A stretch of DNA of 64,000 nt, from NCBI RefSeq assembly GCF_011764425.1, contig NZ_BLPF01000004.1, forward strand, positions 1,376,001-1,440,000. The letters are read 5' to 3'. Source of the DNA: Phytohabitans houttuyneae. Its GTDB lineage: Bacteria > Actinomycetota > Actinomycetes > Mycobacteriales > Micromonosporaceae. The position numbers and the translations under genes are program-made. Positions 1 to 61,393 of the stretch are shown piece after piece (the first letter of the stretch is position 1; every line of letters begins with the position of its first letter). The notes beneath the pieces are model-generated. The model was not told the DNA's origin, did no database searches, and was given only the letters and a program-made list of their open reading frames with translations.

Positions 1-186
1 CTGCTCGCCGACTCGTCCAAGTTCTCCACCTCGGCGATGGTGAAGATCTGCGGGTGGGCGGCGATCGGCACGATCGTCATCGACGACGGCATCACCGAGG
101 AACACCAGCGCATGCTCGAAGCACAGGACGTAGAAGTGATCACGGTGTCCACCAAGGAGGCACCGTCGGTGGCGGCGGCCTCGTGA
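1..186 (+). CDS. DeoR/GlpR-family transcriptional regulator, C-terminal end (partial)
   Basis: Only the last 61 codons are in the window; the gene begins upstream. The visible part starts LLADSSKF and runs through a hydrophobic strand to a final segment ending in VEVITVS. This matches the end of the DeoR sensor domain, where a conserved ADSSKF motif is followed by the last beta strands. DeoR proteins are cytoplasmic repressors that usually sense phosphorylated sugars. Its TGA stop overlaps the GTG start of the next gene (GTGA at 183-186), so the two are translationally coupled and it probably controls the downstream dehydrogenase. The DNA-binding half cannot be seen. Confidence 0.85.
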   Translation: MLADSSKFSTSAMVKICGWAAIGTIVIDDGITEEHQRMLEAQDVEVITVSTKEAPSVAAAS

Positions 187-1241
187 CGGCACGGCACCGG
201 ATCGCGGTCATCGCCGGCGACGGCATCGGCCAGGAGGTCGTACCGGCCGCCGTGCGATGCCTGGACGCGGTGGCCGAGCGGCACGACATCGCGTTCGACT
301 GGCACCACCTCGACTGGGGCTCCGACCACTACCGCGCGCACGGGCGCATGATGCCCGTCGACGGCCTCGACATCCTCGCCGGCCACGACGCCATCTTCCT
401 CGGGGCGGTCGGCGTCCCGGACATCCCCGACGTACACACGCTGTGGGGCCTGCTCATCCCGATCCGCCGCGCGTTCGCCCAGTACATCAACCTCCGCCCG
501 GTCCGCACCCTCCCGGGCGTACCCTCGCCGGTCTTCTCCCGCGACCCCATCGACCTGGTGATCGTGCGGGAAAACAACGAGGGCGAGTACTCCGAGGTCG
601 GCGGCCGCGTCTACCAGGGCTCCGCCGACGAGATCGCCATCCAGGAGTCGGTCTTCACCCGCCGCGGCGTCGAACGCGTCGCCCGCTACGCGGCGGCCCT
701 CGCCGCCGGCCGCCGCGGCCACCTCACCTCGGCCACCAAGAGCAACGGCATCGTGCACACCATGCCCTTCTGGGACGAGGTGGTGCGCGACGTGCTCGCC
801 GACTTTCCCGACGTGACCGCGCGCCAGGAGCTCGTCGACGCGCTGGCCGCCAGCCTGGTGCTGCACCCCGAGCGGTACGACGTGATCGTCGCCTCCAACC
901 TCTTCGGCGACATCCTCTCCGACCTGGCCGGCGCGGTGGCGGGCTCGATAGGCTGCGCGCCGAGCGCCAACCTCAACCCGCCGGGCGAGCACCCGTCGAT
1001 GTTCGAGCCGGTGCACGGCTCCGCTCCGGACATCGCCGGCCAGGGCATAGCCAACCCGATCGGCCAGATCTGGAGCGGCGCCATGATGCTGGACGCGCTC
1101 GGCCACGCCGCCGCGGCCGCCCAGCTCATCACCGCCTTCGAGGCGGCACTCGCTTCCGGCACGCGCACCCGCGACATCGGCGGCACGGCCACAACCGCCG
1201 AGGTGGCCGCCGCCGTGGTCGCCCACCTCGGCCCCAGCTGA
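183..1241 (+). CDS. tartrate/D-malate dehydrogenase-type beta-decarboxylating dehydrogenase
   Basis: NAD-dependent, metal-dependent oxidative decarboxylation of a 2-hydroxy acid (tartrate, D-malate or 3-isopropylmalate class). The 352-residue product opens with the IAVIAGDGIGQEV nucleotide-binding start of the isocitrate/isopropylmalate dehydrogenase family. GLLIPIRRAF followed by YINLRPVRTLPGV resembles tartrate dehydrogenases more than LeuB. Further on are the catalytic ATKSNG segment, the metal-binding NLFGDILSDLAG and the EPVHGSAPDIAG NAD loop. An open frame extends further upstream, but the GTG at 183 puts the GDGIG motif at the family's usual distance and overlaps the DeoR stop. Pairing with a DeoR regulator argues for a catabolic role rather than leucine synthesis. 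The exact substrate cannot be read from sequence. Confidence 0.85.
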   Translation: MTARHRIAVIAGDGIGQEVVPAAVRCLDAVAERHDIAFDWHHLDWGSDHYRAHGRMMPVDGLDILAGHDAIFLGAVGVPDIPDVHTLWGLLIPIRRAFAQYINLRPVRTLPGVPSPVFSRDPIDLVIVRENNEGEYSEVGGRVYQGSADEIAIQESVFTRRGVERVARYAAALAAGRRGHLTSATKSNGIVHTMPFWDEVVRDVLADFPDVTARQELVDALAASLVLHPERYDVIVASNLFGDILSDLAGAVAGSIGCAPSANLNPPGEHPSMFEPVHGSAPDIAGQGIANPIGQIWSGAMMLDALGHAAAAAQLITAFEAALASGTRTRDIGGTATTAEVAAAVVAHLGPS

Positions 1242-1340
1242 CGCCCCGCCGTCCTTCCTCAAGCACACGGGCCCCGGCCCGCGCCACCTGCGGACCGCGC
1301 CGACGCCCCGGCCGTCCTCGCTCAGGCAGACGTTCCCCGG

Positions 1341-1453
1341 CCCGCGTCACCTGCGGACCGCATGCTCCCGCGGGCACCGCTGCGGCCGGCGGCTCGCTCG
1401 GCGCTCGCCGAAACCCCGGCCTCCGCTGCCGGGTCCGCGCGCCAAGCCCACCA
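1341..1453 (+). repeat. 113-bp intergenic repeat, copy 1 (3' element family 2)
   Basis: This stretch downstream of the dehydrogenase closely matches 7651-7763, with the same length and only scattered substitutions plus one small compensated gap. Both copies follow a rightward gene in the same orientation. A shorter relative of its first 25 bases also occurs just before it, near 1271-1300. The rest of the 1242-1534 spacer shows no coding sequence. Confidence 0.7.
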
Positions 1454-1502
1454 GCGACTCATCCGAGCGGGATGCGGCTGCCTCAGAGGCGGTGCGAGGA
1501 AA

Positions 1503-1533
1503 CAAAATCAGGGATGGTGCTGGGATCTTGACG
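1503..1533 (+). repeat. short intergenic repeat shared with 34021-34055
   Basis: The string CAAAATCAGGGA, a short variable spacer and TGCTGGGATCTTGA recur as the reverse complement at 34021-34055. At the second site the first half forms a small hairpin (CAAAATC/GATTTTG); here that stem is imperfect. The element ends one base before the stop of the leftward isomerase gene. Confidence 0.55.
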
Positions 1534-1534
1534 C

Positions 1535-2539
1535 CTAGTCCTGGGTGAAGGCGGTGTCGAAGCGGGCGTGCGGCGGGTCCCACAGCAGCGACCGCACGAA
1601 GGACAAGGCCCTCGGGGCGCCGTCCAGGCGGCTCATGCGGGCGTCCTCCCACTCGATCGAGATCGGGCCCTCGTAGCCGATCGCGGCGAGGGCGCGGAAC
1701 GCGTCCTCGAAAGGGACGTCGCCCTGGCCGGCCGAGACGAAGTCCCAGCCGCGCCGGGGGCTGCCCCACGGGAGGTGCGAGCCCAGGCGGCCGGCGCGGC
1801 CGTCCTTGGCGCGGATTCTCGTGTCCTTGCAGTCGACATGGTAGATGCGGTCGGCGAAGTCGACGATGAAGTTGGCCGGGTCGACGTCCTGCCACATCAT
1901 GTGGCTGGGGTCCCAGTTCAGGCCGAACGCGGCGCGGCGGTCGATCGCCGCAAGTGTGCGCGCGGTCGTCCAGTAGTCGTACGCGATCTCGCTGGGGTGC
2001 ACCTCCAGCGCGAAGCGCACGCCCTCGCTGTCGAAGACGTCCATGATGGGGTTCCACCGGCGGGCGAAGTCGGCGTAGCCGTCGTCGATGACCTCTTCGG
2101 GGACCGGCGGGTACATGGCGACGTACCGCCAGATCTTGGAGCCGGTGAAGCCGGTGACCACGCCGGCGCCCAGCTTGCGGGCCAGGATCGCGGTCTTCTT
2201 GACCTGCTCGGACGCGCGGGCGCGCACACCCTCGGCGTCGCCGTCGCCCCAGGTGCGGGAGCCGGCGATGTTCTGGTGGCGGAAGTCCAGCGGGTCGTCG
2301 CAGACGAGCTGGCCCTGCGCGTGGTTGGACAGCGCCCACACGCCGAGGCCGTGGCGGTCGAGGATCTCCTTGCGGCCGCGCAGGTACGCCTCGTCGGACA
2401 GCGCCCGGTCGACGTCGAGGTGCTGTGACTTGCAGGCGATCTCCAGGCCGTCGAAGCCCCAGCCGGCCGCCAGCTCGCACACCTCCTCGAACGGCAGGTC
2501 GGCCCATTGGGCGGTGAAGAGGGTGACGGGGCGGGTCAT
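1535..2539 (-). CDS. sugar phosphate isomerase/epimerase (xylose-isomerase-like TIM barrel)
   Basis: A 334-residue cytoplasmic enzyme of the AP-endonuclease-2/xylose-isomerase-like TIM-barrel superfamily. Members use a divalent metal for aldose-ketose isomerisation, 3-epimerisation or related reactions on sugars and inositols. Likely metal-site segments are visible in order: FALEVHPSE (Glu), GLNWDPSHMMW (Asp and His), HVDCKDTRI and, near the end, SIEWED (Glu). It is the last gene of a three-gene leftward operon and overlaps the preceding gene by ATGA (2536-2539). The substrate is unknown. The neighbouring decarboxylase-like gene suggests a pentulose or hexulose, possibly phosphorylated. Confidence 0.88.
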   Translation of the reverse strand: MTRPVTLFTAQWADLPFEEVCELAAGWGFDGLEIACKSQHLDVDRALSDEAYLRGRKEILDRHGLGVWALSNHAQGQLVCDDPLDFRHQNIAGSRTWGDGDAEGVRARASEQVKKTAILARKLGAGVVTGFTGSKIWRYVAMYPPVPEEVIDDGYADFARRWNPIMDVFDSEGVRFALEVHPSEIAYDYWTTARTLAAIDRRAAFGLNWDPSHMMWQDVDPANFIVDFADRIYHVDCKDTRIRAKDGRAGRLGSHLPWGSPRRGWDFVSAGQGDVPFEDAFRALAAIGYEGPISIEWEDARMSRLDGAPRALSFVRSLLWDPPHARFDTAFTQD

Positions 2540-3261
2540 GAGACGGGAGTCTCGTGTACGCGGGCTATCGCGTCGCCCAGGATCCGCGGGAGGTCGCCCT
2601 CCGGGATCGTGAACGAGGTCTCGTCGTCGATCGCCAGCGGTGCGCCGAACACCACCACACCGGCGCCGATCCGCGGGCAGCCGACCGCCTGCTCGATGGA
2701 GAGGCCACCGACGGCCTGTACGGGCAGGGTGGTCGCGGCCACGATGCCGGGCAGGTCGGTGAGCGGGGAGAGCTTGAGCTCGCGGTGCATGTTGCGGTGG
2801 TCGTGGCCGATGTGGTGCAGCACCATGCCGACGCCCAGCTCCTCCAGGCGGCGCGCCTCGGCGACGCGGTCGGGTGCGGCCATGTCGTCGCCCATGACCA
2901 GCAGGCCGTACGCCTCGCCGGCCTCGCAGACCCGCTGCACGGTGGCGTCGTGCGCGCGGCCCATCACCACGACGGCGTCCGCGCCGGCCTCGGCGTACAT
3001 GGCCGCCTCGCCGTAGCCGCCGTCCATGATCTTGAGGTCGGCGACGAGCGGGTGGTCGGGGTACTCCTTGCGCAGCGCACGCACCGCCCGCGTGCCCTCG
3101 GCGAGCACGAGCGGCGTGCCGATCTCCAGCCAGTCGGCGCCGGCCTCGACAGCGATGGCGGCCATCCGCAGCGCGTCGTCGAGCGTCTTGAGGTCGAGGG
3201 AGACCTGCACGATCCCATGGGTGAGATCGGAGCGCTTGAGCCCCCGGATGGACGTGGTCAT
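2536..3261 (-). CDS. HUMPS-family enzyme (3-hexulose-6-phosphate synthase / 3-keto-L-gulonate-6-phosphate decarboxylase-like)
   Basis: A 241-residue protein of the orotidine-monophosphate-decarboxylase suprafamily. The diagnostic motif ADLKIMDGG, nearer to the hexulose-phosphate-synthase form ADLKTMDAG than to the ketogulonate form, supplies the catalytic Asp-Lys-Asp. LEIGTPL near residue 45 and a C-terminal QAVGGLS phosphate-binding region also fit. Family members either condense formaldehyde with ribulose 5-phosphate or decarboxylate 3-keto-L-gulonate 6-phosphate. Flanked by two TIM-barrel isomerases and without a 6-phospho-3-hexuloisomerase beside it, a UlaD/UlaE-like sugar-acid route is at least as likely as formaldehyde fixation (inference). 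It starts at ATG 3261 and overlaps its neighbours by 4 bases on both sides. Confidence 0.8.
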   Translation of the reverse strand: MTTSIRGLKRSDLTHGIVQVSLDLKTLDDALRMAAIAVEAGADWLEIGTPLVLAEGTRAVRALRKEYPDHPLVADLKIMDGGYGEAAMYAEAGADAVVVMGRAHDATVQRVCEAGEAYGLLVMGDDMAAPDRVAEARRLEELGVGMVLHHIGHDHRNMHRELKLSPLTDLPGIVAATTLPVQAVGGLSIEQAVGCPRIGAGVVVFGAPLAIDDETSFTIPEGDLPRILGDAIARVHETPVS

Positions 3262-46063: not shown

Positions 46064-47569
46064 TCACTGGGGCCTCACGTTGAAGGTTTCCATGGCCATC
46101 AGCGGGCGCAGCGCGCGCTCGATCTGCGGCGTCACGAACGCGCGGTGGATCGAGCCGTTCCCCAGCTCGTTGCCGATCGCGCCGAGGATCATCGCCTGGT
46201 CGAGCGCCAGGTACCGCTTCGCGACCGTGCCGCTGCGCACCGCGACCGCGTCGTAGAAGCCGCCCGGGCCGTACGCGCCGAGGTTGGCCCGCATCTTCGC
46301 CAGGTTGTCGAGCACCGCGCGCTTGGCGTACGGCAGCGCGAGGAACGCCGCGTGCGGGGTCACCACGCCGTCACCGTAGGTCGGTGCCGGTCCGGCGGGG
46401 CGGCAGTCGCCGAAGCCGCCGTCGTAGTTGGACGACTCCACGTCGGACGGGTAGCCGCCAGGGTCCATGCCCATCGCGTCAACGCCCCACACCCGGTAGC
46501 CGCCGAACGGGTCGGAGGCGGGGGAGAAGCCCCAGTAGCCGTACTTCGCGTCGCGCAGGCCGTGCTCGATCTGCCCCGCCACGGTGGCCGGGTGGTTGCG
46601 ACCCCAGCTGCGCGGCCCCCACTTCGCCTCGGGCACGAACAGGTCCGGCATCAGGGCCTCGAACATGTCCCCGCCCCAGCTCGGCACGAACTGGATGCCC
46701 CGGTACGTGTACGAGCCCTCGAAGACCGGAACGCCGAGGTGCGTGGTCTGGAAGCCGGTGGGCTGCTGCTCCAGCCAGTCCCAGTCGCACGTGGCCGGGA
46801 ACGTGCGCTGCGTGGCGAAGTAGTGCGCGGGCGGGATCTGCCCGAACGCGATGCCGAGGTAGCTGGCGATCCGCGGCTCGGTCACCGCGATGTCGTAGTG
46901 GTTGCACGTGTACCAGACGTCGGGCCCCCGGTCGCGGTAGTTGCCGACCACTGAACATTCGGTCGGCGGGGTGTCCCAGAAGCCGCCGCGGATGAGCCCC
47001 GCCGGGAAGTCCTCGCCGCGCGCGTCCGGGTTGTAGTAGAAGCCGAAGTCCATCGGCGCGAGCAGGCGGCCGGCGAGCGCCCGGTGCTCGGGAAAGGCGT
47101 TGCGCGCCACCACGAGCGCCGCCGCCAGCCAGCCGTTGTCCACGCTGGACAGAAATGGCGTGCGCGGGGTGCCGTCCTCCGGCCACGTGGTGATGACCGT
47201 GCCGGTGCGCGGGTCGTACCAGTTGTAGAACATGCCGGAGTCGTCGTGCCGGTCCAGCCGCGACAGCCCGCGCAGCGCGGCGCCGACCACGGTGGAGGCC
47301 TCCCGGCGCGAGATCACGCCGACGTCCCGGGCGGCGACGGCCGACCACATCAGGCCACCGATGTTCGTCGGCGACGTGTACGCCGAGCGGCTTCCCGGAG
47401 CCAGGTCGCCGCCGATGTTGTCGGCCGGCAGGCCGGTGGCCGGTTCCACCATGGCGACCATCGAGCGCCAGGTGTCCTTCGCATAGGTGTGCAACACGTT
47501 CGGTGCGGCGGCCGCGGGAGCGGCGGGTAGGAGGAGAAGAGCCAGGACAACGGCGAGAAGTCGTCGCAT
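46064..47569 (-). CDS. secreted glycoside hydrolase, COG5368/glycoamylase-like (GH144-type)
   Basis: A 501-residue exported enzyme: signal peptide MRRLLAVVLALLLLPAAPAA with cleavage near AAAAP. The (alpha/alpha)6 barrel of COG5368 is recognisable: FLSSVDNGWLAAALVVAR, MDFGFYYNPDARGED, WGGDMFEALMPDLFVPE and YGDGVVTPHAAFLALPYA. In the GH144 family such proteins cut beta-1,2-glucan; others of this fold remain uncharacterised. It would supply oligosaccharides for the downstream-encoded transporter. It starts 8 bases after the permease stop (ATG 47569), so it belongs to the ABC operon. Confidence 0.83.
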   Translation of the reverse strand: MRRLLAVVLALLLLPAAPAAAAPNVLHTYAKDTWRSMVAMVEPATGLPADNIGGDLAPGSRSAYTSPTNIGGLMWSAVAARDVGVISRREASTVVGAALRGLSRLDRHDDSGMFYNWYDPRTGTVITTWPEDGTPRTPFLSSVDNGWLAAALVVARNAFPEHRALAGRLLAPMDFGFYYNPDARGEDFPAGLIRGGFWDTPPTECSVVGNYRDRGPDVWYTCNHYDIAVTEPRIASYLGIAFGQIPPAHYFATQRTFPATCDWDWLEQQPTGFQTTHLGVPVFEGSYTYRGIQFVPSWGGDMFEALMPDLFVPEAKWGPRSWGRNHPATVAGQIEHGLRDAKYGYWGFSPASDPFGGYRVWGVDAMGMDPGGYPSDVESSNYDGGFGDCRPAGPAPTYGDGVVTPHAAFLALPYAKRAVLDNLAKMRANLGAYGPGGFYDAVAVRSGTVAKRYLALDQAMILGAIGNELGNGSIHRAFVTPQIERALRPLMAMETFNVRPQ

Positions 47570-47577
47570 GGAAAGCC

Positions 47578-48405
47578 TCACTTGAGTCCGGTCGTCGCGA
47601 TGCCCCGCAGGAAGTGCCGCTGGAGCAGGACGAACACGATGACCACGGGCAGCAGGACGGCGACCGCACCGGCGAGCACGAGCCCGAAGTCGATGCGGTT
47701 CTGGCCCACGCTGTAGAGCGCGAGCGCGACGGGGAGCGTGTACTTGTCCTCGGTGGTGGCCACGACAAGCGGCCACAGGAAGTTGTTCCAGGAGGCGAGG
47801 AACGTGAGGATCGTGAGCGTGGCCAGCGCCGGGCCGCACAGTGGCAGCACGATCCGCGCGAAGATGCGCAGCTCGCCGGCACCGTCCACTCTGGCCGCCT
47901 CGATCAGCTCGTCCGGAATGGACAGCAGGTACTGCCGCATCAGGAAGACGCCGAACGGGGTGGCCAGGAAGGGCAGGATCAGGCCGCCGTACGAGTTGAC
48001 CAGCCCGAGGTTGCTGACCATCACGAACTGCGGCACGAACGTCACCATGCTCGGCACCATCAGCGTGCCGAGCACGACGACGAAGAGCGCCCGCTTGCCG
48101 GGGAAGCGCAGCTTGGCCAGCGCGTAACCGAGCAGCGAGCAGAAGACGAGGTTGCCGAGGGTGGTCAGCACCGCGACGATCGCCGAGTTGGCGAACGCCT
48201 GCGGAAAGTCCAGCCTGGACAGCAGCTCGCGGTAGTTGTCGAGGGTGAAGACCTCCGGCCACCAGGTGGCCGGGATGCGGCGGATCTCCGACTCCGGCTT
48301 CACCGACGACAGCGCCGCCCACAGGAACGGGCCGACGACCACCAGGATCCCCGCGCCGAGGATTGTGTACAGCGCGGCGCGCGCGACCAGATCTTTGCGT
48401 CGCAT
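47578..48405 (-). CDS. carbohydrate ABC transporter permease (MalG-type)
   Basis: A 275-residue inner-membrane permease with six predicted helices. The binding-protein-dependent transport signature that contacts the ATPase is ELIEAARVDGAGELRIFARI (EAA motif). SSVKPESEIRRIPATWWP near the N terminus is typical of MalG-type subunits. No ATPase gene is in the operon, so a shared MsiK-type ATPase elsewhere is expected, as in streptomycetes. It starts 1 base after the MalF-type gene. Confidence 0.93.
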   Translation of the reverse strand: MRRKDLVARAALYTILGAGILVVVGPFLWAALSSVKPESEIRRIPATWWPEVFTLDNYRELLSRLDFPQAFANSAIVAVLTTLGNLVFCSLLGYALAKLRFPGKRALFVVVLGTLMVPSMVTFVPQFVMVSNLGLVNSYGGLILPFLATPFGVFLMRQYLLSIPDELIEAARVDGAGELRIFARIVLPLCGPALATLTILTFLASWNNFLWPLVVATTEDKYTLPVALALYSVGQNRIDFGLVLAGAVAVLLPVVIVFVLLQRHFLRGIATTGLK

Positions 48406-48406
48406 G

Positions 48407-49351
48407 TCAGTCCCTCGATCCCAGGAGCCGGAACTGGAGCACGGACAGGCCCACGATGGCGGCGAAGAGCACGTAGCTGACCGCCGCGGCGTAGCCGTAG
48501 TTGCCGAAGCCGAACTGGTTGTAGATGTGGTACGAGACGGACAGCGTCGAGTCGAGCGGCCCACCCCGCGTCATCACCAGCGGCTCCTCGAAGAGCTGCA
48601 GGTAGCCGATGCTGGTGACCACGCCGCCGAACAGCAGCGTGGGACGCAGCAGCGGCACGGTGATGTGGCGAAACTGCGCCCACCGCCCGGCACCGTCCAG
48701 CTTGGACGACTCGTACAGCTCGGCGGGGATCGCCTGCAGCCCGGCCAGGAAAATCACCATGAGAAAGCCGAAGTTGCGCCAGACCGCCATCGCGATGATC
48801 GACGGCAGCGCGAGGTCGGGGTCGCCGAGCCAGTTGGGCCCCTCGACGCCGACCAGGCGTAGCGCGTTGTTGACCAGGCCGGCCTCCGGGTCGAGCAGGA
48901 AGCGCCAGACCACGGCGAGCGCCACGATGCTGGTCACCACCGGCAGGTAGAAACCGACCCTGAAGACCGTGCGGAAGCGGACCAGGCCGGAGTTGAGCGC
49001 ACTGGCCGCGGCCAGCCCGACCGCCATCGTGAGCGGCACACCGACGACCACGAAGACCGCCGTGTTCAGCGCGGCCCGGCGAAACTGCGCGTCCTCCAGC
49101 AGGCGGGTGTAGTTGTCAACGCCGACGAACTCCACCGCGAACGGCGTCCGCAGGTCGGTCGAGCGCAGGTCGGTCACGCTCATCACCAGCGACGCCACCA
49201 CCGGTACCGCCATGAAGAGCAGAAAGAGCAGCGTGAACGGGGTGGCGAAGGCCCAGCCGGCCAGCCCCTGGCGGATCCGGTAGGGGCGGCCGGCACCGGC
49301 AGCGGCATCCGCCCTGGCCGGTGCCGGTGCCGGTGCTGTCGCGGTGGCCAC
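48407..49351 (-). CDS. carbohydrate ABC transporter permease (MalF-type)
   Basis: A 314-residue membrane protein, six helices. GWAFATPFTLLFLLFMAVPV is the first helix; ELYESSKLDGAGRWAQFRHI is the EAA loop. An Ala-Pro repeat at the N terminus (from GGTGCC repeats at about 49320-49340) is low complexity and may vary between strains. It starts at GTG 49351, 2 bases after the binding-protein gene, in a tight operon. Confidence 0.93.
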   Translation of the reverse strand: MATATAPAPAPARADAAAGAGRPYRIRQGLAGWAFATPFTLLFLLFMAVPVVASLVMSVTDLRSTDLRTPFAVEFVGVDNYTRLLEDAQFRRAALNTAVFVVVGVPLTMAVGLAAASALNSGLVRFRTVFRVGFYLPVVTSIVALAVVWRFLLDPEAGLVNNALRLVGVEGPNWLGDPDLALPSIIAMAVWRNFGFLMVIFLAGLQAIPAELYESSKLDGAGRWAQFRHITVPLLRPTLLFGGVVTSIGYLQLFEEPLVMTRGGPLDSTLSVSYHIYNQFGFGNYGYAAAVSYVLFAAIVGLSVLQFRLLGSRD

Positions 49352-51712: not shown

Positions 51713-52645
51713 TCAGCCGAGAAGATTTATCCGGTCCAGCCTCGGCGCCCAGCCGTCCGGGTTGCTGAAGGTCAGGTTGTTCCGGCCGCCGACGAGCGAG
51801 ATCGTGAACGTCCGCGACGCGACGACGTCCCAGCCGCCGCTCGACGGGAACGACAGCTTGAAATGCGTCTCGGTGTTGATCGAGAGGATCGCGAACCGGT
51901 CCTCGCCGCTGACGTAGTCGACGGTCAGCGCGTACCGGTTGGTGGCGGGCACGTCCACCTCGGTGAACGAGACGAGCCCCGCCCGCCGGTCCGGCCCGCT
52001 GCCGATGTTGCGGACGATCCGGCCACCGGAGGCCGCGCGCAGCGACAGCACCTCGGCGCCGCCGATCAGCGCGGCGTCCTCCGCTTCGTAGGAGCGGGTG
52101 AACGGCCCGGGTGCCGCCGGCGCCTTCTTCGCCCGGGACGGGGTCGGCGACGGGGCGGCCGCCCCGATCTCCTGGTCCCCGCTCGGCGGCGGCTCCTGTG
52201 GCGGCGCGGTCGGCAACGCCAGCCCTTGCCCGCCAGCCGGCGGCCTGCCGCCGTCGGGGGAAAGCATGGCCACCGCCGCGACCGCGAGCGCCAGCAGCCC
52301 GACCGCCGCCAGCCCGAGCCACGCCCGCTGGCGTGCCTGGCCGGGCGCGACCAGCTCGCCGAAGCGGAGCCGTCCCGCGTGGACGTACCGTCCGACCCCC
52401 GCCACCACGTCCACGCCGGCGCTGGCGGCCCGCCTGCGTGGACGTGGCGGTGGCACCGGTGCGGACACCGGCGCGTCGAGGTCGACCGCCGGCGCCTCGT
52501 AAGCCGCGGGCGACTCCGGCGCCGCGTGCGCCGGACCCGCGCGCCGTCTCCGCGCCGGTGCCGTCCCCTGACCGGCCCCGATACGAGCGGGCGGCAGCCA
52601 TCCACCGACCCGCAGCCGGTCCATACCCTCGCGATCCGCAGTCAT
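51713..52645 (-). CDS. membrane-anchored protein with extracellular CBM35/CBM6-like domain
   Basis: A 310-residue protein. An N-terminal cytoplasmic Arg/Pro-rich region (about 110 residues) is followed by one membrane helix (LGLAAVGLLALAVAAVAML, about residues 118-138), a Pro-rich linker, and a carbohydrate-binding module from YEAEDAALIGGAEVLS to the end (RLDRINLLG). The YEAED opening and DRI ending are typical of CBM35/CBM6. It may hold polysaccharide near the cell surface beside the ABC operon. ATG 52645 follows GAGGTGCGGAT. It is on the same strand as lacI, 43 bases upstream of it. Confidence 0.8.
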   Translation of the reverse strand: MTADREGMDRLRVGGWLPPARIGAGQGTAPARRRRAGPAHAAPESPAAYEAPAVDLDAPVSAPVPPPRPRRRAASAGVDVVAGVGRYVHAGRLRFGELVAPGQARQRAWLGLAAVGLLALAVAAVAMLSPDGGRPPAGGQGLALPTAPPQEPPPSGDQEIGAAAPSPTPSRAKKAPAAPGPFTRSYEAEDAALIGGAEVLSLRAASGGRIVRNIGSGPDRRAGLVSFTEVDVPATNRYALTVDYVSGEDRFAILSINTETHFKLSFPSSGGWDVVASRTFTISLVGGRNNLTFSNPDGWAPRLDRINLLG

Positions 52646-52710
52646 ATCCGCACCTCGCCTGGTCCCCAAAGGTCAGATACGGTGCGCGGCGATTATCGGA
52701 TCAAATCGCG

Positions 52711-53970: not shown

Positions 53971-54116
53971 GCCGCCCAACCCTACCCGTGTTGATCGCGG
54001 CGGTTTCGAAGCTTCGACAACCCCCAAGGGTTTCGCGTTTTTTGAATCTATTGACTTGGAAATTGGGGAGGATCACTCTTCCGACCAGACACGGGGTTTC
54101 ATCCGGGGAGGAAATG

Positions 54117-56396
54117 ATGCGGAAGAGACCTTATCTTCGCGCGCCCATATTTGTTGGGCTGGTCGTCCTTACCACCGTCGCGGCTCCGGTCGTGACCCCG
54201 TTCGCCGCGGCGGACGTGTCCACATTGGCCGTACCGTTCGCGGTACAGAGCCTCGACGGTTCCGGCAACAACGTGGCCAACCCCACGTGGGGGCAGGCCA
54301 ACCAGCCGTACTCGCGGGTCGCCGCCGCCCGGTACGCGGACGGGCGCAGCCAGCCCGTGAGCGGCCCGAACTCCCGTTACATCAGCAACCGCGTATTCAA
54401 CGACGTGGCCCAGAATGTGTTCTCCGAACGCCAGGTAACGGCCTGGGGATGGACCTGGGGTCAGATTCTCGACCACACCTTCGGGCTCCGTCTGGGACGG
54501 GCGCCCGGCGATCCGGCAGGGGAGACGGCAAACATTCCCTTCAATGCCAACGACCCGCTGGAAGAGTTTGAGAACACGCTCGGATTCATTCCGTTCGTAC
54601 GCTCCGATCCGGCTCCCGGCACCGGCGTGACAAACCCCCGCCAGCAGGTGAACACCAACCCGTCGTACATCAACGGCTTCCCGATCTACGGCGGCACCAG
54701 CGCGCGGCTGGACTGGCTGCGCGAAGGCTCGAACGACGGAAACCCCGCCAACAACAACGCCCGCCTGCTGATGCAGGGCAACTACCTGCCGCGCGCGAAC
54801 GCACGGGGCAGCGCGTCGACCGCACCGCCGATGGAGGTCGACGGGATCCTGCGGGCAAACCCGGCCAGCGCGATGGTCGCCGGCGACGTACGCGCCAACG
54901 AGAACCTGTTCCTGACCGCGACGCACACGCTCCTGGCCCGCGAGCACAACCGGATCGTCGGCCTGCTGCCGGCGTCGCTGTCCGAAGAGGACAGGTTCCA
55001 GATCGCGCGGCGGGTGGTGATGGCCGAGCAGCAGTACATCACGTACACCGAGTGGCTGCCCGCGATGGGCATCAGCCTGCCCGCGTACTCCGGGTACAAC
55101 CCGGGCATCAACACGGCGCTGTCCAACGAGTTCGCCACCGTCGGCTACCGCGTGCACAGCCAGATCCACGGCGAGATGGAGATCGCGACGGACGCGAGCC
55201 GGTACACGGCCGCCCAGCTCGCCGCGTTCGAGGCGCAGGGCATCGAGATCGTCCGGGAGGGCGACGAGGTCGAGCTGGTCATCCCGCTCAACCGCGGCTT
55301 CTTCAACCCCGCCCTTGTCCCGTCGATCGGGCTCGGCCCGCTGCTGCAGGCGATCGGTGGCGAGCCCCAGTACAAGAACGAGGAGATGATCGACAACCAG
55401 CTGCGCAGCGTGCTCTTCCAGATTCCGGTCTCCGGCAACCCGGAGTGCCTGGACGGCGAAGGGCTGCCGGAGTGCTTCGACGCGGTACTCGACCTCGGCG
55501 CGATCGACGTCGAGCGGGGCCGGGACCACGGCATGCCGACCTACAACCAGCTGCGCCAGGCGTACGGCCTGCCGGCCCGCACCTCGTTCACCCAGATCAC
55601 CGGCGAGGCGAGTGCCGCCTTCCCGCCCGGTACCGGCGTCGACAACCCGGCCAGCCTCGGTTTCCCGCAGCTGTTCGACGTCTTCAACGCCGAGGTCGAC
55701 CAGGCCGACGAGGACGCGGTGGAGGGCACGCCGGTGCGGTTCAACCGGGCCAGCCCGCTCGCCGCGCGGCTGCAGGGCATCTACGGCAGCGTGGACAGTG
55801 TGGACGCTTTCGTGGGCGCGCTGGCCGAGCCGCACGTGGCGGGCACTGAGTTCGGCGAGCTGCAGCGGGCCATCTGGACCCGCGAGTTCCAGCGGCTGCG
55901 CGACGGCGACCGCTTCTTCTACGCCAACGACCCCGCTCTGCAGTACATCCAGAGCACCTACGGCATCGACTACCGCCGCAACCTCGGCGACCTCATCGCG
56001 CTCAACAGCGACATCCCTCGCGCCGAGCTGCCGAAGAACGTGTTCTTCGCCGAGGGCGACGTGCCGCCGGCCGCATGCCGGGTCACGTACCGGCAGGAGA
56101 GTCAGTGGAGCACCGGTTTCCAGGTCACCATGTCCATCACCAACGCCGGCTCCACGCCGGTACCGGACGGGTGGACGCTGCGCTTCGTCTTCCCGAACGG
56201 GCAGCAGATCACCCAGCTCTGGAACGGACTCGTCGCTCAGGACGGGGCGCGCGTGCCGGTCACGAACGCCGGCTGGAACGGCACCCTCGGCCCCGGCCAG
56301 ACACTCGGCGGTGTCGGGTTCAACGCGACCTGGAGCGGAGTCAACAACCGGCCGGCGGCGTTCTCCCTGAACACCACGGCCTGCACGACCGGGTGA
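54117..56396 (+). CDS. secreted animal-type haem peroxidase fused to a C-terminal CBM2
   Basis: 759 residues: signal peptide (cleavage near FAAAD, residue 32), peroxidase domain (about 60-640) and cellulose-binding CBM2 (about 654-757). Peroxidase residues known from myeloperoxidase are present: Asp119-His120 in WGQILDH (haem-linking Asp and distal His), Arg259 and Glu262 in GDVRANENL (catalytic Arg and second haem-linking Glu), REHNRIVG, and proximal His347 in YRVHSQI. IDVERGRDHGMPTYNQLR is the family signature. CBM2 shows GWTLRFVFPNGQQ, QLWNG, AGWNG and a Cys pair. GGAGG is 5 bases before ATG 54117. It would bind cellulose and oxidise substrates with hydrogen peroxide (inference). Confidence 0.92.
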   Translation: MRKRPYLRAPIFVGLVVLTTVAAPVVTPFAAADVSTLAVPFAVQSLDGSGNNVANPTWGQANQPYSRVAAARYADGRSQPVSGPNSRYISNRVFNDVAQNVFSERQVTAWGWTWGQILDHTFGLRLGRAPGDPAGETANIPFNANDPLEEFENTLGFIPFVRSDPAPGTGVTNPRQQVNTNPSYINGFPIYGGTSARLDWLREGSNDGNPANNNARLLMQGNYLPRANARGSASTAPPMEVDGILRANPASAMVAGDVRANENLFLTATHTLLAREHNRIVGLLPASLSEEDRFQIARRVVMAEQQYITYTEWLPAMGISLPAYSGYNPGINTALSNEFATVGYRVHSQIHGEMEIATDASRYTAAQLAAFEAQGIEIVREGDEVELVIPLNRGFFNPALVPSIGLGPLLQAIGGEPQYKNEEMIDNQLRSVLFQIPVSGNPECLDGEGLPECFDAVLDLGAIDVERGRDHGMPTYNQLRQAYGLPARTSFTQITGEASAAFPPGTGVDNPASLGFPQLFDVFNAEVDQADEDAVEGTPVRFNRASPLAARLQGIYGSVDSVDAFVGALAEPHVAGTEFGELQRAIWTREFQRLRDGDRFFYANDPALQYIQSTYGIDYRRNLGDLIALNSDIPRAELPKNVFFAEGDVPPAACRVTYRQESQWSTGFQVTMSITNAGSTPVPDGWTLRFVFPNGQQITQLWNGLVAQDGARVPVTNAGWNGTLGPGQTLGGVGFNATWSGVNNRPAAFSLNTTACTTG

Positions 56397-56852
56397 TCAG
56401 ATCAGCTGGCCGCGGCGGCGGTGCTCGACGGCCCGGATCAGCGCCCTGCTGACCTGACCGAACTCCTGCCCGTCACCTGTCTCGAAAAGCAATGTGGGCC
56501 GACTCCCGTAGTCGGCCCACATCTGGTAGCTCGCCGGCCAGCGCCGGCAGCTGAACATCATGACCCCTAACGCTGCGGCCGCCGCGAGCGCGGCGATGAC
56601 CCAGGCGAGCGGTGTGCTGAACACCAGCGCCACGGGTGCCGCGACCCCCATCACGGCGAGGCCCAGGTAAAGGGAGCTGCGGGCCGGGGAGGGCAGGGGC
56701 CCGCGGGCCCGCTCGAGGTGGTGCAGCTCGGCGATCATGAACCGGCTGCCGTGCACGACCAGCCACTTGTCGGTGACGGCGACGCCACGCTGGTGGTAGT
56801 AGGCGGTGAACCCGGGTGACCTGCCCGGACGGCTGAGGTGATCGACGCTCAT
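56397..56852 (-). CDS. DUF6232-like membrane protein
   Basis: A 151-residue protein. A beta-rich front half (FTAYYHQRGVAVTDKWLVVH, RFMIAELHHLERARGP) is followed by two membrane helices (LYLGLAVMGVAAPVALVFST and LAWVIAALAAAAALGVMMF) and a cytoplasmic tail (TLLFETGDGQEFGQVSRALI). This order of features fits the DUF6232 family of actinobacteria, of unknown function. It is convergent with the peroxidase gene, with its stop overlapping the end by one base. Start ATG 56852. Confidence 0.8.
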   Translation of the reverse strand: MSVDHLSRPGRSPGFTAYYHQRGVAVTDKWLVVHGSRFMIAELHHLERARGPLPSPARSSLYLGLAVMGVAAPVALVFSTPLAWVIAALAAAAALGVMMFSCRRWPASYQMWADYGSRPTLLFETGDGQEFGQVSRALIRAVEHRRRGQLI

Positions 56853-59900: not shown

Positions 59901-60600
59901 TGTCGCCCGGACCCTCGGCGACGAGCTCGTCGACCGCGTCGAGGATGGCCTGGATCGGGTCCTGCTCGTCCTCCGGCGGGCGGTAGCGGACCTCGACGGG
60001 GTACGTGCGGCCGGAGACCTCCACGATCGGGGCGTCGCCGAAGTGCTTCGAGAAGCGCTCCGGATCGATCGTGGCGGAGGTGATGATCACCTTCAGGTCG
60101 GGCCGCCGGGGCAGCAGCCGTTTGAGGTACCCGAGGATGAAGTCGATGTTGAGGCTGCGCTCGTGCGCCTCGTCGATGATCAGGGTGTCGTACTGCCGCA
60201 GCATCCGGTCGTGCTGGATCTCGGCGAGCAGGATGCCGTCCGTCATCAGCTTGACCAGTGTGCCGTCGCTCACCTTGTCCGAGAAGCGCACCTTGTATCC
60301 GACGGTGCTGCCCAGCGGCGTGTCCAGCTCCTCGGCGATCCGGTCCGCCACCGTCCGCGCCGCGATCCGCCGCGGCTGGGTGTGGCCGATCAACCCCTCG
60401 ACACCCCGCCCCAGCTCAAGACAGATCTTGGGCAGCTGGGTGGTCTTGCCGGAGCCGGTCTCGCCGGCCACGATCACGACCTGGTGGTCGCGGATGGCCG
60501 CGAGGATCTCGTCTTTCTTCTGGCTGACCGGGAGTGCCTCGGGGTAGCTGATCTCCGGCACGCTCTCTCGGCGAGCGGCCAGCCGCAGGTCCCGATCCAT
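56929..60600 (-). CDS. hrpA: ATP-dependent RNA helicase HrpA
   Basis: A 1223-residue DEAH-box helicase of the HrpA type. Walker A is GETGSGKTTQ (about residue 46), Walker B/DEAH is LIIDEAHERSLN, motif III is ITSATIDPERFSKHFG, and motif VI is QRKGRSGRTSDG. The oligonucleotide-binding HrpA C-terminal domains fill the second half (DUF3418). Bacterial HrpA removes stalled or collided ribosomes and unwinds structured mRNAs. It is monocistronic, with the start at ATG 60600 just before MDRDLRLAARRESVPEISYP. Confidence 0.95.
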   Translation of the reverse strand: MDRDLRLAARRESVPEISYPEALPVSQKKDEILAAIRDHQVVIVAGETGSGKTTQLPKICLELGRGVEGLIGHTQPRRIAARTVADRIAEELDTPLGSTVGYKVRFSDKVSDGTLVKLMTDGILLAEIQHDRMLRQYDTLIIDEAHERSLNIDFILGYLKRLLPRRPDLKVIITSATIDPERFSKHFGDAPIVEVSGRTYPVEVRYRPPEDEQDPIQAILDAVDELVAEGPGDILVFLSGEREIRETTDALRKHDLRHTEILPLYARLSHAEQHRVFQSHTGRRVVLATNVAETSLTVPGIKYVVDPGTARISRYSHRLKVQRLPIEPVSQASANQRKGRSGRTSDGICIRLYSEDDFLSRPEFTDPEILRTNLASVILQMRALGLGDMAAFPFVEPPDRRNIKDGVDLLHELGALDGERLTKLGRRLAQLPVDPRLGRMVLEAERNGCVHEVLVITAALSIQDPRERPTDHQQAADEKHARFVDKESDFLAYLNLWKYVEEQQKALSSSQFRRLCRNEFLNYLRVREWQDLYGQLRQAVKPPKAPPADGQRVHLSLLSGLLSHVGLKNTQRHEYLGARGAKFGIFPGSALFKKQPQWVMAAELVETSRLWARIVAKVEPEWVERLAGHLVKRSYSEPHWEKKQGAVMAVERVTLYGVPLVTGRKVNFGRIDPPLARELFIRHALVEGDWETHHAFFRENRALLDEVEELEHRARRRDILVDDETLFAFYDQRLPADVVSARHFDSWWKKTRQLQPDLLTFEKAMLINERAGTVQATDYPDEWRQGELALKLTYQFEPGTGADGVTVHIPLPLLSRLRPEGFDRQVPGLREELVVALIRSLPKPMRRNFVPVPDYARAALSRMAADGPLLEALERELRRMTGTPVPREAWDISKVPDHLRMTFRVEDESGAMLAEGKDLTALQDRLRETVRETVTAAAPGITRRGLRAWDVGTLPRAVQQERAGYAVTAYPALVDEGDAVGVGVFETEAEQRYAMWSGTRRLLLIGLPSPAKVMQGRLSNEDKLALSRNPHQGVADLLDDAAGAVVDQLMAGAGGPAWDEDGFAKLRDAVRGGYVDGLVTVLGQVRRVLAAAYQVEQRLKTTTRLDLMPSLADVRAQLSALVYRGFVTATGQRRMGDLVRYLTAIERRLERLPQNPQRDLQQVRVIEEIQREYAQLRREVPPSDALHEIRWMIEELRINLFAQALGTAYPISEQRIYRAMDSL

Positions 60601-60697
60601 GTCCCGACAAGTTTATCCCGCCTGGCCAGCGCATTTTCCTGGCGCGGCACGGGGCGGGTGCGGGCCGCCTGGGGAATGCGGTCCGCACCCGGCGCGG

Positions 60698-61117
60698 TCA
60701 GCTGATGTTGAAGAGGGGGCCGGTGATGGTGAGGCCGAGCTCGTCGCCGGCGAACGAGAACAGCGCGAAGAGCATGAGCGCCGCGCCGCCCAGTGCGATG
60801 TCCTTCTGGAACTGGATCATTTCAACCTGCCGCCCCTGCGGGTCGGACTCCTTCCAGAACGGGTGCATGAGCAGCGCGGTGGGAATCAGGAAGATGACCA
60901 GCAGCAGGGCGCCGAGGTCCGCCCAGATGCCGAGCAGGACCATCAGCCCGCCGGCGCCGATGATCAGGCCGCTGACCAACGTCGCGGCGAACGCCTGTGG
61001 CACGCCCTTGCTGGACGCGTAGCCGGCCATCGCCTTGGTCTGGGTCAGGTGGCCGACCGCCGACCCGATAAAGAGCGCCGAGAAGAGGATGCGACCAATG
61101 AGAACCAGTATGTCCAT
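60698..61117 (-). CDS. DoxX-family membrane protein
   Basis: A 139-residue protein with four membrane helices. VLIGRILFSALFIGSAVGHLT opens it, the typical DoxX first helix; GVPQAFAATLVSGLIIGAGG and ALLLVIFLIPTALLMHPFW follow; the WKESDPQGRQVEMIQFQKDI segment is a diagnostic DoxX loop. Members are linked to redox or thiol stress. The ATG at 61117 has GGAGGT 5 bases upstream; longer frames lack this. Operator-like inverted repeats lie before it (61156-61190). Confidence 0.9.
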   Translation of the reverse strand: MDILVLIGRILFSALFIGSAVGHLTQTKAMAGYASSKGVPQAFAATLVSGLIIGAGGLMVLLGIWADLGALLLVIFLIPTALLMHPFWKESDPQGRQVEMIQFQKDIALGGAALMLFALFSFAGDELGLTITGPLFNIS

Positions 61118-61155
61118 GCCTACCTCCATCAACGGAGACGACTGCGACGAATACT

Positions 61156-61190
61156 CTTGACCGATCAAGTATCCGCTCGTCAAGTACTTG
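61156..61190. promoter_or_regulatory. two inverted repeats upstream of doxX (operator candidates)
   Basis: CTTGACCGATCAAG (61156-61169) and the perfect palindrome CAAGTACTTG (61181-61190), sharing the half-site TCAAG(TA), lie 39-73 bases before the doxX start. The arrangement suits a MarR- or HxlR-type redox regulator. The rest of 61118-61402 has no gene beyond a possible short peptide. Confidence 0.5.
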
Positions 61191-61339
61191 GTTCAAGTGA
61201 TGGCCGTCGTTGGATCGGTGTCCTGACCTGGTGGCCTCTTAGAGACATGTCGCGTTTGCGCACGCGCACAGCTAGTGACCTGGGCGGCGACGGGTTGCAG
61301 ACTTTCGGACTGGCGCCCCCACAAAGGAGCAGCGGCCCT

Positions 61340-61393
61340 GTGCCGAAGGCAAAGCGGGTGGTCCTCGCGGTTACCGCCGCGGGGGCTCCCTAG
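61340..61393 (+). CDS. possible 17-residue peptide (low confidence)
   Basis: AAAGGAG (61323-61329) precedes GTG 61340, which opens VPKAKRVVLAVTAAGAP and stops at TAG 61391. The basic start and hydrophobic run look like the front of a signal peptide, so this may be the remnant of a lost secreted-protein gene or a real short peptide. It is reported only because of the good ribosome site. Confidence 0.2.
   Translation: MPKAKRVVLAVTAAGAP

Follow-up and report, generated by a model that had tools for sequence, protein, structure and literature searches.

The window, by which we mean the whole 64-kb stretch of Phytohabitans houttuyneae DNA analyzed here, contains a gene that joins a heme peroxidase domain to a C-terminal CBM2 (Table 1). 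The upstream neighbor is divergent and acyl-CoA-dehydrogenase-like, and the downstream neighbor, a DUF6232 gene ending at 56397, is convergent. An alternative start at the ATG at 54114 is possible. The N terminus, judged by eye, has a basic start, then a hydrophobic stretch and an Ala-rich end near residue 32, and the 759-amino-acid protein is likely secreted, as the sequence-only reading of this DNA had proposed.

Table 1. Features of the peroxidase-CBM2 locus (positions are those of the window)
Feature	Position	Strand	Basis or remark
Upstream conserved stretch: ACCCCCAAGGGT (54020-54031), ATCTATTGACTT (54046-54057)	54020..54057	+	Identical in 4/4 genus sequences aligned
RBS-like GGGGAGG	54105..54111	+	Five bases before the ATG at 54117
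Peroxidase-CBM2 gene	54117..56396	+	Single open frame, 759 amino acids plus stop; alone by layout
Putative Sec-type signal peptide, about residues 1-32	54117..54212	+	Judged by eye
Heme peroxidase domain, about residues 44-645	54246..56051	+	Pfam, PDB sequence comparison
Distal motif Gln116-x-x-Asp119-His120, then Thr121	54462..54479	+	Alignment; Thr121 is at the calcium-Asp position of animal peroxidases
Arg259 ... Glu262, catalytic Arg and second potential heme-ester residue	54891..54902	+	Alignment
Proximal motif Tyr344-Arg-Val-His347, dioxygenase-type spacing	55146..55157	+	Alignment, two aligners
Asp464 at the proximal-Asn position (CyanoPOX Asn376)	55506..55508	+	Alignment; CyanoPOX residue from PMC11776367
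Interdomain linker, about 8 residues	56052..56075	+	Alignment
CBM2 domain, residues 654-756, surface Trp664, Trp702, Trp720	56076..56384	+	Pfam, alignment, model

The Pfam family An_peroxidase (PF03098) matched with an E value of 7.9e-98 and 328.7 bits, against a cutoff of 25, in two stretches of which the best spans residues 44 to 498; passing this gathering score places the protein in the peroxidase-cyclooxygenase superfamily. CBM_2 (PF00553) matched residues 654 to 756 with an E value of 3.3e-26, far above its cutoff. Among PDB sequences, the peroxidase part matched the bacterial CyanoPOX (8s6c; E value, 4.3e-63) and also peroxinectin A and myeloperoxidase/lactoperoxidase (MPO/LPO), and the CBM2 part matched the Cellulomonas fimi cellulose-binding domain (CBD) 1exg (E value, 1.1e-23). 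The fusion described in the sequence-only reading is therefore real. Across the 10 pairs formed by five Phytohabitans genes, dN/dS was 0.115 to 0.186 in the peroxidase part and 0.148 to 0.338 in the CBM2 part, low values that argue against a chance fusion and for purifying selection on both domains.

The predicted structure of the full-length protein had a pLDDT of 36.4 and gave no usable model of the peroxidase domain. The isolated CBM2 was predicted with a pLDDT of 88.6, and its best Foldseek match was a C. fimi cellulose-binding domain (TM, 0.89), so that in the model the module is formed with the CBM2 fold. It is flanked by the pair Cys654 and Cys756, and we take Trp664, Trp702, and Trp720 to be its three surface aromatics, after their role in the C. 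fimi CBD. All three Trp are kept in 11 of the 19 fused CBM2s compared and the first two in 4 more, two of which have Tyr in third place, as do 39 of 65 CBM2s from other proteins; 3 of the 19 lack all three Trp, and 1 more lacks the first. Each of the first two Trp is kept in 64 of the 65 CBM2s that belong to other proteins of the fetched loci. These tallies make cellulose anchoring likely for the protein in the window and for its genus, though not throughout the fusions. Between the NVF[F/L]-like end of the peroxidase and the first Cys of the CBM2 lie 8 to 11 residues in the 18 fusions that could be read, a spacing at which the two domains should sit close together. One longer relative (L012; G010:C506, positions 2 to 3019, plus strand) combines a peroxidase, a CBM2 that has lost all three surface Trp, and a Pro/Ser-rich linker; its C-terminal part has, by eye, a zinc-protease-like HEVGHVLGYGH motif.

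The two halves of the active site

By alignment, the distal side is of the peroxidase type and its residues are complete. Gln116, His120, and Arg259 are kept in all 44 near-complete rows of the clade to which the protein belongs, Asp119 in 41 of them, and Glu262 in 40. Arg259 and Glu262 form the R-x-x-E, with the second ester Glu, of the MPO/LPO families, and Asp119, His120, Arg259, Glu262, and His347 all fall at exactly the residue numbers given in the sequence-only reading. The distal motif of MPO/LPO-type families is G-Q-x-x-D-H-D (PMC4420034), in place of which the protein reads GQILDHT. Position 121 is Thr in 38 clade rows, Ser in 2, Asp in 2, and Asn in 2, and the calcium-binding Asp is thus gone in 42 of the 44. 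Covalently bound heme had been called plausible on the strength of the two ester-linking residues. Both are present, but their presence is not enough: the corresponding Asp and Glu also occur in CyanoPOX, whose heme was noncovalent in the crystal (PMC11776367), so covalent heme in the window's protein is possible and not implied.

The proximal side is built differently. The proximal motif is [F/Y]-R-x-Gly-His in the 16 rows of bacterial peroxidases used for comparison (4 long, 11 short, and 1 CyanoPOX-like); in the clade, the proximal helix reads [Y/F]-R-x-His and is one residue shorter, which places Tyr344 three residues before the proximal His (His-3), as is the catalytic Tyr of alpha-dioxygenases and cyclooxygenases (COX). 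Position 344 is Tyr in 38 of the 44 clade rows and Phe in 6. The Asn to which the proximal His is hydrogen bonded in MPO/LPO is present in 15 of the 16 bacterial peroxidase rows; here it is replaced by Asp464, and two aligners agree on Asp at this position in 44 of 44 clade rows. The equivalent residue is also Asp in seven of seven alpha-dioxygenase-like rows, one of which matches rice alpha-dioxygenase with an E value of 4.3e-112, and is Gln and Asn in the two COX-like rows. A separate hhalign run paired Tyr344 and Asp464 with the same alpha-dioxygenase-like residues, with a one-residue gap just before the Tyr. PDB chain 4kvl, a rice alpha-dioxygenase, has Phe for Tyr at the position equivalent to Tyr344.

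The Tyr of alpha-dioxygenases becomes a radical and puts oxygen into a fatty acid (PMC8720084), and Tyr385 of COX, in which the His is His388, acts likewise (PMC13049297); the His-3 residue of CyanoPOX is Arg291, which bridges a heme propionate (PMC11776367). The active site of the window's protein appears to be a hybrid, with a peroxidase distal half and a dioxygenase-like proximal half. The likeness to myeloperoxidase claimed in the sequence-only reading accordingly holds on the distal side and fails on the proximal side, where the Tyr-x-x-His and the Asp are those of alpha-dioxygenases. That reading makes no mention of Tyr344, Asp464, or Thr121. Membership of the MPO/LPO families proper was ruled out, as the proximal Asn and the calcium Asp both fail.

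Tyr and Phe have replaced each other at position 344 at least five times on the tree. In five of the six Phe344 rows, Asp119 or Glu262 is lost as well (in one case only through a change of Glu to Asp), against 1 of 38 Tyr344 rows. The raw counts, from rows that are not independent, gave a Fisher P value of 3.2e-5; on the tree the coupling was not significant, with four independent pairs of which two to three were in favor, none was opposite, and one to two showed no difference. The loss of an ester residue in Phe344 rows is a hint that Tyr344 and the heme esters belong together, the pairs being too few for a test.

Place in the superfamily and likeness to known enzymes

The alignment and tree comprised 69 of 79 nonredundant matches, ten partial or weakly matched rows having been removed by hand; five of the removed rows (L014, L104, L114, L115, and L116) belong to the clade, and each shows Y-R-x-H-S. 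The clade was monophyletic at 100/99 and joined the long peroxicins and the CyanoPOX-like row at 98/83, and the alpha-dioxygenase- and COX-like rows paired at 99/97 apart from it, in a tree for which the tool warned of long branches, including some at the decisive joins. The clade thus lies on the bacterial-peroxidase side and does not group with the alpha-dioxygenases and cyclooxygenases. In the alpha-dioxygenase OsaDOX, His311 and Arg559 hold the fatty acid carboxylate (PMC8720084). His311 aligns to Thr309, and Arg559 aligns to Arg593 (hhalign) or Leu594 (MAFFT); position 593 is Arg in 9 of 44 clade rows and position 594 in 0 of 44, and the carboxylate-holding pair is not conserved in the clade. 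Membership of the alpha-dioxygenases was ruled out by these substrate residues and by the tree, and the enzyme, as judged from its sequence, probably does not act as a plant-type dioxygenase.

The nearest solved relative is CyanoPOX (PDB 8S6C), a bacterial lactoperoxidase (profile E value, 7e-86) with the same distal Asp, His, Arg, and Glu. It differs in having Arg291 at His-3, Asn376 on the proximal side, a PEP-CTERM tail, and no CBM2 match, where the window's protein has Tyr344, Asp464, and a CBM2. CyanoPOX is an active peroxidase on iodide and aromatic compounds, with its highest catalytic efficiency on iodide (PMC11776367). Myeloperoxidase and lactoperoxidase share the fold family, the distal catalytic residues, and both ester-forming acids; relative to them, the window's protein has Thr121 for the calcium Asp, Asp464 for the proximal Asn, Tyr344 for the Arg at His-3, and one residue fewer before the proximal His. 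Rice alpha-dioxygenase (PDB 4kvj) and its bacterial relatives share the Tyr-x-x-His spacing and likewise have Asp in place of the proximal Asn (7/7 rows), but those seven rows lack equivalents of Asp119, Arg259, and Glu262, and the clade does not conserve the carboxylate-binding His311/Arg559. With the cyclooxygenases, Tyr-x-x-His is held in common (2/2 COX-like rows), but at 464 those two rows show Gln or Asn instead of Asp, and the profile alignment is weak there (hhalign E value, 4.8e-11).

The nearest precedent for the overall design is found in the fungal Hybrid B heme peroxidases, which have an N-terminal heme peroxidase and a C-terminal carbohydrate-binding domain (PMC5571214), so a carbohydrate-anchored heme peroxidase is not new as an idea. 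Hybrid B enzymes differ in belonging to another superfamily, the peroxidase-catalase superfamily, in being stated to occur only in Fungi so far, and in carrying CBM21, CBM34, or WSC; their CBMs mostly do not conserve the binding aromatics (PMC5571214), whereas the CBM2 in the window keeps three Trp. The peroxidockerins (Family 6 of the peroxidase-cyclooxygenase superfamily) are also bacterial animal-type peroxidases fused to another domain, which is a Dockerin part and not a CBM2; LspPOX is named as studied at the protein level (PMC4420034), and neither "cellulose" nor "carbohydrate" appears as a word in the text of that paper. No report of an animal-type peroxidase joined to a CBM2 was found among the open-licence PMC papers listed, which agrees with the sequence-only reading, where no characterized example was known. 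A bacterial enzyme of the peroxidase-cyclooxygenase superfamily that combines a CBM2 with a mixed active site is real, conserved, and, in those papers, undescribed.

Distribution and genomic setting

Genomes were searched with profiles within the Actinomycetota. The peroxidase domain (E value, ≤1e-30) was matched in 34 of 300 Micromonosporaceae genomes and in 8 of 396 genomes spread over the phylum, with the window's own genome counted in both. Five of six Phytohabitans genomes carry the gene, and the sixth (G005) gave only CBM2 matches; the nearest named matches are from Phytohabitans flavus and P. suffuscus, at 90% identity each. The pairing is not a one-off, as 19 of the 44 clade rows are distinct CBM2 fusions, recognized with the CBM2 profile on the open frames of fetched loci. 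By the origin of their loci, they come from 15 of the 300 family genomes, from one genome of another family in the same class (G559), and from one member of the Streptosporangiaceae. The remaining 25 rows either stop at the end of the peroxidase domain or continue into a tail that has no CBM2 match. L114 to L116 run off contig ends, where their C termini are not visible, and two fragments from G277 were left out. The CBM2 label changes at least three times among the 44 rows on the 69-row tree, which indicates more than one gain or loss of the fusion. The tailed members without CBM2 include L013, L083, L094, L095, L097, L106, L107, and L111; where such tails have 30 residues or more, 13 of 16 carry at least +3 net charge over their final 25 residues, and these basic tails are perhaps another way of holding to a surface. 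A search of viral contigs gave no relative of the peroxidase, and plasmids gave 23 records, at 20 to 30% identity among the matches listed, and thus no close relative.

The flanks of the relatives were compared with the genes of the window. Only in members of the genus (L036, L037, L038, and L124) are window genes found again next to the peroxidase; outside it there are only scattered weak neighbor matches of 24 to 37% identity. The upstream genes (LacI, solute-binding protein, permease, and PF10091), which the sequence-only reading took as a glycosidase/ABC operon that fits a plant-biomass lifestyle, are a weak sign of such a lifestyle, as the hydrolase matches PF10091 and DUF3131 and the gene order is shared only within the genus. 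The neighboring genes give no clue to function and say little on the plant wall. At 46064 to 48564 on the minus strand, a 752-amino-acid frame with PF10091/DUF3131 overlaps a 328-amino-acid frame; the hydrolase may truly start later, with a second permease before it. A 318-amino-acid protein (51713 to 52669, minus strand) has a likely membrane segment and, toward its C terminus, a YEAEDA... part that is CBM35-like by eye, with no Pfam match; it is shared in the genus at 48 to 67% identity and is less conserved than most neighbors. A 264-amino-acid frame at 60599 to 61393 on the plus strand has no Pfam or NCBIfam match.

The conserved stretch upstream of the gene is a possible regulatory site. 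P. suffuscus has both elements as well, and the divergent dehydrogenase was not matched in the locus fetched from this species; ACCCCCAAGGGT also scores as terminator-like. A CebR-like operator, sought in the window with up to 2 mismatches, gave 0 matches, with 0.73 expected by chance.

The host genome (11.3 Mb) is rich in cellulose-targeting genes. It has 89 CBM_2 matches, a heavy use of cellulose-binding modules, and nine LPMO_10 matches, of which four are in the same open frame as a CBM2, together with three GMC_oxred_C matches; none of the LPMO_10 or GMC_oxred_C matches falls inside the 64-kb window. Three other PF03098 genes in the genome are of the short peroxicin type.

Possible functions of the fusion protein

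We favor, at roughly an even chance, a secreted, H2O2-dependent heme peroxidase that is held on cellulose by its CBM2 and oxidizes small donors at the fiber surface. Compound I would be formed with H2O2 at the distal Gln116/His120/Arg259 site, and one-electron oxidation of small donors, such as phenolics, aromatics, and perhaps halides, would follow at the fiber surface, where the CBM2 would keep the enzyme. On the proximal side, Asp464 probably supports His347 and should thereby raise the electron density of the iron ligand. By alignment, Tyr344 would occupy the site of the protein radical in cyclooxygenases and alpha-dioxygenases. Peroxidase activity could be altered or reduced by the changes on this side. 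We prefer this reading because of the domain matches, the kept distal residues, the kinship with CyanoPOX, the tree, the Trp residues and model of the CBM2, the purifying selection, and the 89 CBM_2 and nine LPMO_10 matches of the genome. Against it stand the lack of a usable model of the heme domain, neighbors shared only in the genus, the few fused CBM2s that have lost surface Trp, and the 25 of 44 clade rows without a CBM2.

The same protein might instead serve as a peroxide sink that removes H2O2 beside cellulose-bound LPMOs and protects them or the cell, using any donor, with lignin and phenolics not its target. The LPMO_10 genes fused in frame to a CBM2 would fit such shared cellulose targeting, and a table of pyranose oxidases includes two Phytohabitans species (PMC9916811), a possible source of H2O2 in the genus. 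However, no LPMO_10 or GMC_oxred_C match lies in the window, and peroxidases require a donor, whereas catalases do not; we consider this role unlikely.

Quite unlikely is a lipid or polymer oxygenase of the cyclooxygenase or alpha-dioxygenase kind, in which a Tyr344 radical would take a hydrogen from the substrate and O2 would add. The match of Tyr at His-3 and of Asp464 to alpha-dioxygenase-like rows by two aligners is consistent with it, as is the loss of an ester residue in nearly all Phe344 rows, but the natural Phe rows with their repeated Tyr/Phe changes, the unconserved His311/Arg559 equivalents, a tree that keeps the clade outside the dioxygenases, and a Tyr/ester coupling that is not significant by independent pairs all speak against it. 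We hold it very unlikely that the enzyme is an antimicrobial halide or thiocyanate peroxidase defending colonized plant fiber against competitors, a role to which the conserved Gln116 would point, in that the Gln of the motif seems to aid halide binding (PMC4420034), together with the preference of CyanoPOX for iodide by catalytic efficiency (PMC11776367). Least probable of all is Mn(II) oxidation or superoxide production in which the Mn(III) formed would act away from the enzyme, as proposed for some bacterial animal-type peroxidases, since although animal heme peroxidases are listed among Mn(II)-oxidizing enzymes, with superoxide-based work cited, MopA was without activity in the wild type or double mutants (PMC11930936), and the tree sets the clade apart from the four long-peroxicin rows.

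A bolder form of the cellulose-anchored enzyme, for which we see only a slim chance, would be a tethered radical enzyme in which a peroxidase distal pocket with ester-linked heme drives a radical at Tyr344, beside a proximal His-Asp pair, and hydrogen is taken directly from a wall polymer or lipid at the fiber surface. If this were true, cyclooxygenase-like chemistry would have arisen independently among the peroxidases of the superfamily and been put to oxidative attack on biomass. Little is understood of how bacteria attack the plant cell wall by oxidation, and many of their animal-type peroxidases lack an assigned role. A cellulose-anchored peroxidase offers a concrete target for study, and the natural Tyr/Phe variants of this peroxidase-side clade provide a means to probe the proximal Tyr and the His-Asp pair.
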